Below are positions 22,520 to 37,565 of a stretch of DNA of 37,949 nt, piece after piece. Both the position numbers and the translations under genes were made by a program. Position 1 is the first letter of the stretch; each line of letters opens with the position of its first letter. The DNA is from Dietzia aerolata. GTDB lineage: Bacteria > Actinomycetota > Actinomycetes > Mycobacteriales > Mycobacteriaceae. Where the stretch lies: NCBI RefSeq assembly GCF_014144865.1, contig NZ_JAALDM010000130.1:1-37949 (forward strand). Direction: 5' to 3'. The notes under the pieces were generated by a model. The model was not told the origin of the DNA, searched no databases, and saw only the letters and a program-made list of their open reading frames with translations.

Positions 22520-23446
22520 CTAACCCGAGCTCGGATCGTCCCGGTCGCCTCGCAGGAAGCGCTCGAACTCGGCGGCGATCGCGTCGCCGTCGACAAGCGG
22601 CATGGCTTCTCCGCTCGAGGCCCGGCCACGATCCGGCTCCGGATCGTCCCCGTGCTCGATCTCGTTCTCCTCGTCCATCCGGTCCTCGAGGGAACGGATG
22701 TAGTCACGCAGATCCTCGTCCTCGCCGGCGGCGGCGTCGACCTTCTCGACCCACGTCCGGGACTGCACGCGTAGCGCATCCATGCCCACGGCCATACCCA
22801 GGTTTTCCGCGAGCCAGGACAGCATCGCTTCGGTGCCGCGCGGATTGGGCGGGGAGGCCACGTAGTGGGGGACACCCGCCCACAAACTCAGGGTCGGGAC
22901 CCCGGCCTCGGTGAGCAGTTGCTGCAGGACCCCCGTCATCCCGGTGGGGCCCTCGTACTCGGTGGCCTCGACACCCATGGTCGACATGCGCTGCCGACTG
23001 AACGCGGACCCGGACAGCGGCACCGGCCGCGTGTGGGGGACATCGGCGAGGTAGGCGCCCAGCAGAACGACCTGGGATGCGCCGAGGGTGTCGACGAGAT
23101 CCACGAACTCCGAGGCGAAGGTGCGCCATCTCAGGGCTGGCTCCGGGCCCTGCACCAGCAGCACGTCGTTGGCCACGCCGTCCGGACGGCAGGCCGAGAC
23201 GACGATGCGAGGCCATTCGATCGACCGGGACACCCCGTTCGACTGGCGGATGACCGGCCGCTGATCCAGGTAGTCGAAGAATTCGTCGCCGCCGATCTCC
23301 GCGATCTGCCGGGCCTCCATGTTGAGCGCGAGATGCTCGATCGTCCCGGTCGCCACGTCCGCTGCGTCGTTCCAGCCCTCGAACGCCACGATCATGACCG
23401 GGTTCTCCAGATCAAGATTCCCGTCAGGACTCCATTCGACAGTCAT
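22520..23446 (-). CDS. PAC2 family protein
   Basis: This is a 308-aa protein of the PAC2 (proteasome assembly chaperone 2-like) family. Characteristic blocks are NPVMIVAFEGWNDAADVAT at the N-terminus, VLLVQGPEPALRW, VVLLGAYLADVPHTRPVP, GPTGMTGVLQQLL and LWAGVPHYVASPPNP. The C-terminal 60 residues are acidic and probably disordered. Despite the name, a proteasome role in actinobacteria is not established, and this locus lacks 20S genes. From memory the M. tuberculosis homologue Rv2125 lies next to metH as here. ATG 23446 has TAGGCT 6 nt upstream. Confidence 0.9.
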   Translation of the reverse strand: MTVEWSPDGNLDLENPVMIVAFEGWNDAADVATGTIEHLALNMEARQIAEIGGDEFFDYLDQRPVIRQSNGVSRSIEWPRIVVSACRPDGVANDVLLVQGPEPALRWRTFASEFVDLVDTLGASQVVLLGAYLADVPHTRPVPLSGSAFSRQRMSTMGVEATEYEGPTGMTGVLQQLLTEAGVPTLSLWAGVPHYVASPPNPRGTEAMLSWLAENLGMAVGMDALRVQSRTWVEKVDAAAGEDEDLRDYIRSLEDRMDEENEIEHGDDPEPDRGRASSGEAMPLVDGDAIAAEFERFLRGDRDDPSSG

Positions 23447-31585: not shown

Positions 31586-32473
<888 letters not shown>

Positions 32474-32650: not shown

Positions 32651-34351
32651 GTGACCGAGGGACGTTCCCCGGCCGGACAGGGTGATGATCGGGTCACGGT
32701 CGACCGGGCGGAGCTCTCGCGGCTACGCAAGGCGGTCGACGAGGGGGCCCGCTCGGACCGCGAGAAGGCGATCAAGATCGACGCCCTGGGTGCGCGCAAC
32801 GTTCGGCTCGCCGAACTCCTCAAGGACTCCCGCGACCAGCTGGAGGTCCTCAAGGGTGAGGTCGAGCGTCTCGGGAACCCGCCCAACACGTACGGCGTGG
32901 TGCTCTCACGCCCGACGGAGGACGCGACGGTCGAGGTCATGACCGCCGGACGCCGGATGCTCCTCACACTCGCCCCCGGAGTCACCTCCTCGACCGTCAC
33001 GGTCGGCGCGACGGTGCGGCTCAACGAGGCGCTGACGGTTCTGGAGGTCTCGTCCGACCTGCCGACCACCGGGGTCACCGCGATCTTCCGCGACGTGCTG
33101 GCCGACGGCCTGCGCGCCCGCGTCGTGATGGGTAATGACGACGAGCACATCGTGCATCTGGCCGAGGCCCTCCAGGGCGGACGGACTTCCGACCGCCCCG
33201 CCCCGGTGCGGCCGGGGGACGCCGTCCTGGTGGATCCGAAGGCCGCGGTGGCGTTCGAGGTCGTGCCCAAGGCGGAGGTCGACGAGCTGCTGCTCGAGGA
33301 GATCCCGACCGTCGACTACTCCGACATCGGCGGTCTCGGACCGCAGATCGAGCAGATCCGCGACGCGATCGAGCTGCCGTTCATCCACCACGACCTGTAC
33401 CGCGAGTTCCACCTCGCGCCCCCGAAGGGCGTGCTGCTCTACGGCCCGCCCGGCTGCGGCAAGACCCTCATCGCCAAGGCCGTGGCCCATTCGCTCGCAC
33501 GCGCCTCGGCGCTCTCCCGCGGCGATGACGTCTCTGACGGCCACTACCCGAACTCGTACTTCCTGTCGATCAAGGGCCCCGAGCTGCTCAACAAGTACGT
33601 CGGCGAGACCGAACGGCACATCCGGTCGATCTTCGAGCGTGCCCGGGAGAAGGCCACCGAGGGCAACCCGGTGATCGTCTTCTTCGACGAGATGGACTCG
33701 ATCTTCCGTACCCGCGGGTCGGGGGTCTCCTCGGACATGGAGACCACCATCGTCCCGCAGCTGCTCGCGGAGATCGACGGCGTGGAGGACCTGCGCAACG
33801 TCATCGTGATCGGTGCATCCAACCGCGAGGACATGATCGACCCGGCCATCCTGCGCCCGGGGCGACTCGACCTGAAGATCCGGATCGACCGCCCGGACCG
33901 CGACGCCGCCGTCGATATCCTCGGCAAGTACATCACCACGGACCTGCGGTTCGATCCGGAGGACATGAACGGTGCGGGCCCGAAGGAGCACGTGCGGGCG
34001 CTGATCGATCGGGTCGCCGAGCGCCTCTACACCCGTGAACCCGCCACGACCTACGTGCACCTGGTGTTCGCCTCCGGACGGCGGTCCTCGCTGTACCTGG
34101 CCGATCTGACCTCCGGGGCGATGCTGCGCAACATCGTGGACCGCGCCAAGAAGCTCGCGATCAAGGACATCGTCCACGGCAGCGGAAACGGCCTGACCAC
34201 CGATGATTTCCTGGACGCCGTGGACGCCGAGTTCGCCGAGAACACGGACTTGCCCAACACGTCCAACCCGCAGGAGTGGGCACGCCTGACCGGCGTGCGC
34301 GGTGAGCGTGTCGTGGAGGTCACCGTGCCGAACAGGGGAGTGGACGAGTGA
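32651..34351 (+). CDS. mpa: Pup-dependent AAA unfoldase Mpa/ARC
   Basis: This hexameric AAA ATPase recognises pupylated proteins through its coiled coil and unfolds them. The 566-aa product has an N-terminal coiled coil (about residues 15-75), tandem OB domains (about 80-225), and the AAA domain with Walker A GPPGCGKT (265-272), Walker B VIVFFDEMDS (D346, E347) and an Arg finger region near NREDMIDPAILRPGRLD. The C-terminus ends ERVVEVTVPNRGVDE and lacks the GQYL-type tail that opens the 20S proteasome, so the name ARC may suit better. GTG 32651 is preferred to 32582 because the coiled coil starts soon after. The stop overlaps dop by 4 nt. Confidence 0.95.
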   Translation: MTEGRSPAGQGDDRVTVDRAELSRLRKAVDEGARSDREKAIKIDALGARNVRLAELLKDSRDQLEVLKGEVERLGNPPNTYGVVLSRPTEDATVEVMTAGRRMLLTLAPGVTSSTVTVGATVRLNEALTVLEVSSDLPTTGVTAIFRDVLADGLRARVVMGNDDEHIVHLAEALQGGRTSDRPAPVRPGDAVLVDPKAAVAFEVVPKAEVDELLLEEIPTVDYSDIGGLGPQIEQIRDAIELPFIHHDLYREFHLAPPKGVLLYGPPGCGKTLIAKAVAHSLARASALSRGDDVSDGHYPNSYFLSIKGPELLNKYVGETERHIRSIFERAREKATEGNPVIVFFDEMDSIFRTRGSGVSSDMETTIVPQLLAEIDGVEDLRNVIVIGASNREDMIDPAILRPGRLDLKIRIDRPDRDAAVDILGKYITTDLRFDPEDMNGAGPKEHVRALIDRVAERLYTREPATTYVHLVFASGRRSSLYLADLTSGAMLRNIVDRAKKLAIKDIVHGSGNGLTTDDFLDAVDAEFAENTDLPNTSNPQEWARLTGVRGERVVEVTVPNRGVDE

Positions 34352-35910
34352 GTGGCGACAGCTGGCCGGCCGAGGCAAGCCAGTCCGCCATGGGACACGA
34401 GGGTGCCGAGGAGCCGCGCGGTCGGATCATCGGGACCGAGATCGAGTTCGGCATCGTCGCGGTGGGTCAGCCACTGCTGAGTTCGGTGGTCACGTCCACA
34501 CAGGTGATCAAGGCCTACACCGACCCCGGTGAAGGCGTCGGCGGCGCCGACGAGGCACGGTGGGACTACGGGTCCGAGTCGCCGCTGCGCGATGCCCGCG
34601 GCTTCGACCTCGGCATCGCCCGCGCCTATGACCCCAGCGAGTTCGGCGTGACCAACCGCGTGCTCACCAACGGCGCGCGCTTCTACGTCGACCACGCCCA
34701 CCCCGAGTACTCGGCGCCCGAGGTCGACTCGCCGCGCGACGCGGTGATCTGGGACAAGGCTGGCGAGGTGATCATGCACCGGGCCGGCGTCGAGTCCACG
34801 GCCACGGAGGGCAATGCCGAACTCAAGCTCTACAAGAACAACGTCGACGGCAAGGGCGCCTCCTACGGCGCGCACGAGAACTACCTCGTCCGGCGCGACG
34901 TGGATTTTGACGCGCTCACCCTCAGCCTGGCCACCCATCTGCTGTCCCGGCAGATCTACACCGGCGCCGGCCGGGTGGGGATCGGCCAGGAGGGCCAGGC
35001 CGCGGGGTTCCAGATCTCGCAGCGTGCCGACTACATCGAGGTGCTCACCGGGCTAGAGACCACGCTGCGCCGCGGGATCATCAACACCCGCGACGAGCCG
35101 CACGCCACAGACGAGACCTGGCGTCGGCTGCACGTGATCATCGGCGACGCCAACATGGCCGAGCTGCCCACCTACCTCAAGATCGGCACCACCTGCCTGG
35201 TCCTGGACGCAATCGAGGCCGGCGTCGACCTGGCGGACCTGCTGCCCGAGGACCCAGTCGAGGCGGTGCACATCATCAGCCACGACCCCACGCTCACCGC
35301 GACCGTGCGCCTGGGTGACGGGCGGCAGCTCACCGCGCTTCAGATCCAGCGGGAGATCCTCGCCAGGGTCGCCGAGGTGGTGGGCGACGGCCACGGCCGT
35401 CCCGCATGGTCGCTCGAGGTGCTCGCCGAATGGCGCGAGATCCTCGACGCGCTCGGGGAGAACCCGATGTCGTGCGCGGACCGCCTCGACTGGCCCGCCA
35501 AGCTGCGCCTGCTCGAGGGCTTCCGGGCGCGCGACGACCTGTCGTGGGACCACGCGCGGCTGGCGCTGATCGACTTCCAGTACCACGACATCGATCCGGG
35601 TCGCGGACTCTACAACCGTCTAGCGGCCAAGGGGGCCATCCGCAGGCTCACCAGTGACGCCGAGGTCGAGGCCGCGATCACGACCCCGCCGGAAAGAACG
35701 CGGGCGTGGTCCCGAGGTCGCTTCCTGGCCGAACTCGGGGACCGCGTCCACGCGGCGGGGTGGGACCACGTCGTCGTCGTCGACACCCGGGGGCAGGACC
35801 GCCGCATCGACCTCTCCGACCCGTACACCGGCACCAGGGCGTTCTGCGAGGCCACCCCGGACTTCCTGTCGGCCGACGGTCCGAGCGGACCCGACCTACC
35901 CACCGGCTGA
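34348..35910 (+). CDS. dop: Deamidase/depupylase of Pup
   Basis: Dop converts the C-terminal Gln of Pup to Glu and removes Pup from substrates. The 520-aa glutamine-synthetase-like enzyme has the nucleotide-site signature IIGTEIEFGI, the Dop-specific insertion after the first strand (STQVIKAYTDPGEG...YGSESPLRDARGFD) that separates it from PafA, GARFYVDHAHPEYSAPE with the catalytic Asp, and KNNVDGKGASYGAHENYL. The N-terminus is about 24 residues longer than in M. tuberculosis if GTG 34348 is used; ATG 34390 is an alternative. The GTGA overlap with mpa indicates coupling. pup follows after 66 nt. Confidence 0.97.
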   Translation: MSGDSWPAEASQSAMGHEGAEEPRGRIIGTEIEFGIVAVGQPLLSSVVTSTQVIKAYTDPGEGVGGADEARWDYGSESPLRDARGFDLGIARAYDPSEFGVTNRVLTNGARFYVDHAHPEYSAPEVDSPRDAVIWDKAGEVIMHRAGVESTATEGNAELKLYKNNVDGKGASYGAHENYLVRRDVDFDALTLSLATHLLSRQIYTGAGRVGIGQEGQAAGFQISQRADYIEVLTGLETTLRRGIINTRDEPHATDETWRRLHVIIGDANMAELPTYLKIGTTCLVLDAIEAGVDLADLLPEDPVEAVHIISHDPTLTATVRLGDGRQLTALQIQREILARVAEVVGDGHGRPAWSLEVLAEWREILDALGENPMSCADRLDWPAKLRLLEGFRARDDLSWDHARLALIDFQYHDIDPGRGLYNRLAAKGAIRRLTSDAEVEAAITTPPERTRAWSRGRFLAELGDRVHAAGWDHVVVVDTRGQDRRIDLSDPYTGTRAFCEATPDFLSADGPSGPDLPTG

Positions 35911-35976: not shown

Positions 35977-36153
35977 ATGTCCCAGATCCAGAAGAACGCC
36001 GGCGGACCCGGTGAGGGCGACGACGATGCCGGCCAGGTCGCCAAGTCCGCAGACACCACCGCCGCCGACTCGCTGCTGGACGAGATCGACGACATCCTCG
36101 AGACCAACGCCGAGGAGTTCGTGAAGTCCTACGTCCAGAAGGGCGGGCAGTAG
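35977..36153 (+). CDS. pup: Prokaryotic ubiquitin-like protein Pup
   Basis: This 58-aa, acidic, largely disordered modifier is joined to substrate lysines by PafA. The C-terminal half carries the helical Mpa-binding segment (SLLDEIDDILETNAEEFV) and ends in FVKSYVQKGGQ. The terminal GGQ means it needs deamidation by Dop before ligation, and dop is directly upstream. GAGGAG lies 8 nt before ATG 35977. pafA follows after 5 nt. The 20S proteasome genes prcB and prcA, which sit between pup and pafA in M. tuberculosis, are absent. Confidence 0.98.
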   Translation: MSQIQKNAGGPGEGDDDAGQVAKSADTTAADSLLDEIDDILETNAEEFVKSYVQKGGQ

Positions 36154-36158
36154 AGCCC

Positions 36159-37565
36159 ATGCAGCGGCGCATCGTCGGAATCGAGACCGAGTTCGGGATC
36201 ACCAGCGTCGGAGGCGAGGGTGGCCGCTCGCTCGGCGCCGACGAGATCGCGCGCTACCTGTTCCGCCCCGTCGTGGAACGCTGGCGGAGCTCGAACGTCT
36301 TCCTGGACAACGGCTCCCGCCTCTACCTCGATGTGGGCTCGCACCCCGAGTACGCGACCGCCGAATGCGACGGGCTGCGGCAACTCGTGGCCCACGACCG
36401 GGCGGGGGAGCGGATCGTCGACGAACTCGGGCAGCAGGCCGAGCAGTCGCTGGCCGAGCAGGCGATCGATGCCAAGGTCTACCTGTTCAAGAACAACACC
36501 GACTCGGTCGGCAACTCCTACGGGTGCCACGAGAACTACCTGCTCGACCGGTCCACCCAGGTGCGCAGCATCGGCACCACACTGCTGCCGTTCCTGGTGA
36601 GCCGCCAACTGATCTGCGGCGCCGGCAAGATCCTGCCTGGCACCCCGGCGGGCGTCGGGCTGGACGAGACCCGTGACCCGACGTTCTGCTTCTCCCAGCG
36701 GGCCGAGCACATGTGGGACGGTGTCTCCTCGGCCACCACCCGGTCGCGGCCGCTGATCAACACCCGCGACGAGCCGCACGCCGACTCCACGCGGTTCCGC
36801 CGGATGCACGTGATCGTGGGCGATTCCAACATGATCGAGACCACGACGCTGCTCAAGGTCGCCACCACGCGGCTCGTCCTGGAAGCGATCGAGGCCGGCG
36901 TGGAACTCCGGCCCATGGCCGTGTCCCATCCCGTGCGCGCGATCCGCGAGATCAGCCGCGACCTCACCGGCACCCGGCCCGTCACCATGACCGACGGCAC
37001 CACCATGAACGCACTGGAGATCCAGCGGGAGTTCCTCGCCTCGGTCCACCGCTACCTCGACGCCGGGGGATGGGAGCGCCAGGACCGCGACGTGGTGACC
37101 GACTGCGTCGCACTGTGGGAGCGGGTGCTGGACGCCGTCGAGTCCGGCGACCACTCCTCGATCGCCGCCGACATCGACTGGGCCGCCAAACTCCAGCTGA
37201 TCCGGCAGATACAGGACAAGACGGGCGCCGACCTGAACCACCCGCGGCTCGCCCAGATCGACCTGACCTACCACGACATCCGGCCCGGCCGGGGGCTCCA
37301 TTCCGTCCTCGAGCGGCGGGGCCTGGTGTCCCGCGTGGTGACGGACGCGGAGGTCGAGCACGCCCGTACGGTCGCCCCGGAGACCACCCGCGCGGCGCTG
37401 CGCGGCCGGTTCATCCGCGCCGCCCGCGAGGCCGGGCGTGACCACACCGTCGACTGGGTCCACCTCAAGGTCACCGACGGCACCCTGCCCACCGTCGCCC
37501 TGACCGATCCGTTCACGAACGAGGACCCGCGTGTCGACGACCTGATCGCGGCGCTCGGACGATAG
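36159..37565 (+). CDS. pafA: Pup-protein ligase PafA
   Basis: This enzyme forms the isopeptide bond between the C-terminal Glu of Pup and a substrate lysine, using ATP through a gamma-glutamyl phosphate. The 468-aa glutamine-synthetase-like product starts MQRRIVGIETEFGI (metal-binding E9 and E11). It has SRLYLDVGSHPEYATAECD with the catalytic Asp (D58), KNNTDSVGNSYGCHENYL and NTRDEPHAD. It lacks the Dop loop, which supports ligase over depupylase. It is a paralogue of the neighbouring dop. The start lies 5 nt after pup. pafB follows, with a promoter-like hexamer at the pafA stop. Confidence 0.98.
   Translation: MQRRIVGIETEFGITSVGGEGGRSLGADEIARYLFRPVVERWRSSNVFLDNGSRLYLDVGSHPEYATAECDGLRQLVAHDRAGERIVDELGQQAEQSLAEQAIDAKVYLFKNNTDSVGNSYGCHENYLLDRSTQVRSIGTTLLPFLVSRQLICGAGKILPGTPAGVGLDETRDPTFCFSQRAEHMWDGVSSATTRSRPLINTRDEPHADSTRFRRMHVIVGDSNMIETTTLLKVATTRLVLEAIEAGVELRPMAVSHPVRAIREISRDLTGTRPVTMTDGTTMNALEIQREFLASVHRYLDAGGWERQDRDVVTDCVALWERVLDAVESGDHSSIAADIDWAAKLQLIRQIQDKTGADLNHPRLAQIDLTYHDIRPGRGLHSVLERRGLVSRVVTDAEVEHARTVAPETTRAALRGRFIRAAREAGRDHTVDWVHLKVTDGTLPTVALTDPFTNEDPRVDDLIAALGR

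Follow-up and report, generated by a model that had tools for sequence, protein, structure and literature searches.

The window analysed here, a stretch of 37,949 nucleotides from Dietzia aerolata, carries a complete pupylation locus. A trmI-like gene, mpa/arc, dop, pup, pafA and a gene occupying the pafB position follow one another (Table 1), so that ARC is linked to pup, dop and pafA within the window, and all its pupylation genes (mpa, dop, pup, pafA) score above the NCBIfam cut-offs. The mpa/arc product matches the equivalog model pup_AAA (TIGR03689; cut-off 504.75 bits) with 713.9 bits over profile positions 5-510 of 512. It aligns with M. tuberculosis Mpa (7ljf/7px9) over residues 30-558 and comprises the coiled coil, the OB domains, the AAA module and the beta-grasp domain; an alternative in-frame start at GTG 32582 gives 589 aa. 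The protein is 81-88% identical to Mpa of D. maris, D. alimentaria and other Dietzia, and the identity of Dietzia ARC to ARC/Mpa of proteasome-bearing relatives amounts to 56-58%. The TIGR03688 match begins at residue 26 of Dop, and the internal ATG 34390 is a better family start than GTG 34348. Since the C-terminus of Pup is GGQ, deamidation by Dop is required before ligation. A PAC2-family gene (PF09754), a homologue of a eukaryotic proteasome-assembly chaperone, lies on the reverse strand about 9 kb upstream of mpa (22520-23446), in a genome with no proteasome.

Table 1. Features of the pupylation locus in the window, and the cpa gene located elsewhere in the same genome
Feature	Position	Strand	Details
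TrmI-like tRNA methyltransferase	31634..32473	+	PF14801, PF08704; adjoins mpa upstream
mpa/arc, Pup-dependent AAA unfoldase	32651..34351	+	566 aa from GTG 32651, stop TGA; TIGR03689
Beta-hairpin of the beta-grasp domain	34070..34084	+	ASGRR replacing ANGDK (alignment)
Truncated Mpa C-terminus	34310..34351	+	last beta-strand VVEVT (residues 554-558), then VPNRGVDE and stop
dop, depupylase/deamidase	34348..35910	+	TIGR03688, 666.5 bits
pup	35977..36153	+	ends GGQ; TIGR03687, 69.8 bits
pafA, Pup ligase	36159..37565	+	TIGR03686, 688.2 bits; best structure match 4b0t
cpa (Cdc48-like), outside the window	genome G000, contig C64:1883-4228 (loci L138, L151, L155)		CDC48_N and two AAA modules (Pfam)

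Two other genera of the family recur in the comparisons below. Genus g7 is presumed to be Corynebacterium, and the PafA of one of its members is closest to the structures 4b0t and 4bjr, which we take to be C. glutamicum PafA. Genus g79, with a genome of 1.86 Mb (G381), is perhaps Lawsonella.

Mpa/ARC closes with GVRGERVVEVTVPNRGVDE followed by the stop codon, its terminal stretch as read from the sequence being GERVVEVTVPNRGVDE. The earlier note had the chain ending within ten residues of the GERVVEV segment; nine residues (TVPNRGVDE) indeed separate the two, and GQYL is not among them. Against 16 relatives that have the proteasome, the protein can be aligned over its whole length and lacks only the 16 terminal columns that end in GQYL. 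The last strand falls at residues 554-558 in an AlphaFold2 model whose quality is modest (mean pLDDT 71.5), and the chain would thus end just past the beta-grasp domain. The comparison of C-termini with the occurrence of PrcBA that the same note proposed gives a clear separation: GQYL is exact in all 75 other loci, fetched by similarity from proteasome-bearing Mycobacteriales including Pseudonocardia, and is found in none of the 23 Dietzia genomes, which have no PrcB (five named Dietzia loci among the checks likewise lack it). Such a distribution excludes chance. No ARC from the 23 genomes has a penultimate tyrosine; most stop about nine residues beyond the GERVVEV stretch, and the final residues differ from one Dietzia species to another. 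The GQYL end is also missing from the 30 g7 sequences and from the one g79 sequence. The absence of the tail is a real, genus-wide feature of Dietzia and not a frameshift. The most divergent Dietzia genome (G319, locus L132) has a longer, unrelated, alanine-rich C-terminus ending in AAGKDA, as well as an insertion of about 40 residues after the coiled coil. One g7 protein (L102) ends in HCYG, with tyrosine in the penultimate position; this is probably a chance occurrence, no PrcB having been found in g7.

The change is not confined to the tail. In M. tuberculosis Mpa the hairpin 501-505 (ANGDK) contacts the gate helices of the 20S particle through D504/K505; its conservation does not extend to C. 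glutamicum, which has IDGSV there (PMC8755798). ANGDK is present in 75 of 75 proteasome-bearing relatives and altered in all 28 Dietzia rows of the alignment; across the 23 genomes the sequence is ASGRR in 21, ASGRT in one and ASGKT in one. The hairpin charge is reversed in Dietzia, a basic residue now standing in for the acidic one expected to face three arginines. The DK pair never occurs among the 30 g7 proteins, and the g79 hairpin is RDRST.

The partner of these contacts is missing as well. A profile search with PF00227, which covers PrcA, PrcB and HslV, yields zero matches in the D. aerolata genome and in 22 other Dietzia (23/23); the former is 88% complete, and 15 of the others, at 95-100% completeness, give the same result. 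A survey of 401 genomes of the family finds PrcB in 27 of 30 genera; Dietzia (g1), g7 and g79 lack it, and it is missing from 23/23 Dietzia and 61/61 g7 genomes. Proteasome-bearing relatives have prcB/prcA between pup and pafA; here pup ends at 36153 and pafA starts at 36159, leaving no space for the two genes. An assembly gap as the cause of the missing prcBA is rejected, as the interval between pup and pafA is 5 bp and complete Dietzia genomes agree. Bpa, the other activator with a GQYL end, is encoded in 15 of 16 relatives outside both genera but in none of 9 Dietzia and 7 g7 genomes. Of the marks of a 20S-docking activator, namely GQYL with its penultimate tyrosine, the D504/K505 hairpin and the 20S genes, Dietzia ARC displays none. 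In family f8 of the same order, one genome (G022; 100% complete, 4% contamination) contains Bpa and has no PrcB match; its sister genome G008 has PrcB, and the lack in G022 is possibly an assembly gap.

In the RpoB tree Dietzia, g79 and g7 form one clade (support 96/98; 95/92 when g79 is omitted) with Dietzia outside g79 and g7 (97/92), although this single-gene support of 95-98% includes one long branch (G381) and is not final. Read piecewise, G381 contains an ARC ending in RLLSQSSARE, Dop, a Pup ending in GGE and PafA; the same reading turned up none of PrcA, PrcB, Bpa and Cpa. Because the three genera belong to one RpoB clade, a single ancestral event explains the loss of both tail and prcBA, and the most economical reading is that prcBA, Bpa and the tail disappeared once. 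With the two genera joined in the RpoB tree, Dietzia and Corynebacterium need not have lost them separately. The match between tail loss and the absence of prcBA, pointed out in the earlier note, holds, with PF00227 in 0 of 23 Dietzia, the hairpin changed and Bpa gone; in this family the two go back to one clade and count as a single correlated event rather than several separate ones. This weakens any statistical claim of causation drawn from the family data, and the general rule connecting tail and proteasome rests on a wider published survey. The position of Dietzia outside Corynebacterium helps to date the loss of the proteasome.

The core of the unfoldase is intact. ARC retains the helix of the N-terminal coiled coil (residues 19-75), the Walker A (GPPGCGKT) and Walker B (FFDEMD) motifs, which are unchanged, and the pore loop KYVGE, with YVG where relatives have FVG. 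It is present in 23/23 Dietzia and 61/61 g7 genomes, and Pup, PafA and Dop are intact in Dietzia. The dN/dS of Mpa between D. aerolata and 20 other Dietzia is 0.10-0.18 (about 0.14), and 0.27 against the most distant, the values being approximate as some reading frames include upstream extensions. Purifying selection of this kind argues against a relic. A decaying pupylation locus with a non-functional ARC would agree with the loss of prcBA and bpa, with the altered tail and hairpin and with the 56-58% identity to ARC of proteasome-bearing relatives, but it is very unlikely in view of the low dN/dS and intact motifs, the retention of ARC in every Dietzia and g7 genome, and the full arc-dop-pup-pafA set kept even in the 1.86-Mb genome of g79.

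That a sequencing error or frameshift hides a true GQYL-type tail has practically no probability. The draft state of the assembly (339 contigs) is the sole point in its favour, against which a like ending recurs throughout the 23 Dietzia genomes, several of which are chromosomes in one contig, and the mpa stop overlaps the GTG 34348 proposed for dop. A frameshift near 34,330, the one event named beforehand as able to undo the claim, finds no counterpart, as no frame there gives GQYL when inspected by eye and all Dietzia share this type of ending. The truncated ARC might instead dock another peptidase, such as ClpP1P2, through a different surface, and pupylated proteins would then still be degraded. 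Purifying selection on ARC would suit this or any other unfoldase use; the proposal is nevertheless improbable, for the variable last residues form no conserved new C-terminal motif and no PF00227 peptidase occurs in Dietzia genomes. Where the earlier note allowed for an unfoldase acting alone or with another partner, action alone is the better reading, and nothing found supports the partner.

We regard it as highly probable that Dietzia possesses a functional ARC without a proteasome, in which docking has eroded after the ancestral loss of prcBA and Bpa, the core has been kept, and targets are released and not degraded. The missing genes and tail, the altered sequences, the intact catalytic parts, the purifying selection and the single clade are observed directly, and the enzymatic cycle is predicted by homology to C. 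glutamicum. In this account prcBA, encoding the 20S core, and Bpa would have disappeared in an ancestor shared by Dietzia, g79 and Corynebacterium. The ATPase then had no 20S particle to engage, and its GQYL tail and 20S-contacting hairpin would have eroded, the parts for Pup binding and unfolding being kept. Dop would deamidate Pup-GGQ, and PafA would then join Pup to target lysines. The N-terminal coiled coil of ARC would bind Pup, and the target would be threaded and unfolded or dismantled. It would then be released rather than degraded, with Dop taking off Pup for reuse.

ATPases without the docking motif in actinobacteria that lack the proteasome are described in a 2012 review (PMC3511204). 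In C. glutamicum, which has no proteasome, ARC reportedly dismantles pupylated ferritin when iron is limiting (PMC12288473, PMC8223512), and PMC8755798 is also cited for ARC acting alone on ferritin in this species. A tail-less ARC without a proteasome is therefore an already published pattern, to which Dietzia adds a further genus; literature searches, judged by titles and abstracts, yielded no paper on the Dietzia proteasome or pupylation. Ferritin is a possible client of ARC in Dietzia, by analogy. The D. aerolata genome encodes one BfrB-type and one Corynebacterium-type ferritin, and the latter is absent from most Dietzia examined, which have the BfrB type instead. In local tblastn searches the ferritin region that would hold the pupylated lysine known from C. 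glutamicum varies even within g7, so that a ferritin mechanism is proposed by analogy only. A small g7 genome (G218) has ARC and no PF00210 ferritin match; ferritin therefore cannot be the sole client of ARC, and others must exist.

Cpa, a second ATPase of this kind, has been stated to occur only together with 20S subunits (PMC6017811, PMC6466877). The D. aerolata Cpa scores 856 bits against the mycobacterial Cdc48 structure 5e7p and 475 bits against the next structure. Among Dietzia genomes of 90% completeness or more, Cpa is present in 15 of 15 and PF00227 in none. Dietzia Cpa contradicts the published rule of co-occurrence with the 20S, and this observation is new here. The dN/dS of Cpa within Dietzia is 0.14-0.20, and 0.40 against the most distant. 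Its tree places Dietzia as one clade inside the Mycobacteriaceae Cpa group, with the order of genera not settled; this position fits vertical retention rather than horizontal regain by Dietzia. In 25/25 g7 genomes only weaker AAA relatives of the FtsH/ARC kind appear, and together with the result for G381 this suggests that Cpa was lost later, on the branch of g79 and Corynebacterium. The persistence of both ATPases long after the loss of the 20S and Bpa points to a conserved function of Cpa that does not involve the proteasome. ARC and Cpa were probably kept by selection after that loss, the function of Cpa being proteasome-free and its 20S association maybe not its main role.

With its pupylation genes in place and its proteasome gone, Dietzia amounts to a naturally occurring proteasome deletion. 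It marks the surfaces of Mpa that serve 20S docking only, the tail and hairpin being changed and the catalytic parts not. The occurrence of Cpa in the absence of the 20S makes a 20S-independent role of Cpa testable, and provides a clean background for studying the proteolysis-free roles of Cpa and ARC.

The Dietzia protein is an orthologue of mycobacterial Cpa (5e7p), with CDC48_N and two AAA modules; it differs in occurring without the 20S and, at the two Dietzia loci inspected, without the psd/pssA neighbour of cpa. M. tuberculosis Mpa (7ljf, 7px9, 5kwa) shares with Dietzia ARC the coiled coil, the OB domains, the AAA module, the beta-grasp domain and the pore loop at about 57% identity between the mycobacterial and Dietzia proteins, whereas Dietzia ARC lacks the GQYL extension and the ANGDK hairpin and resides in a genome with no 20S. 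C. glutamicum ARC shares with Dietzia the arc-dop-pup-pafA set without prcBA, the missing docking motif, the lack of Bpa and the replaced 20S-contact hairpin (IDGSV there, ASGRR in Dietzia). Dietzia, on the other hand, branches outside Corynebacterium and g79, has in most members examined a BfrB-type and not a Corynebacterium-type ferritin, and keeps Cpa.
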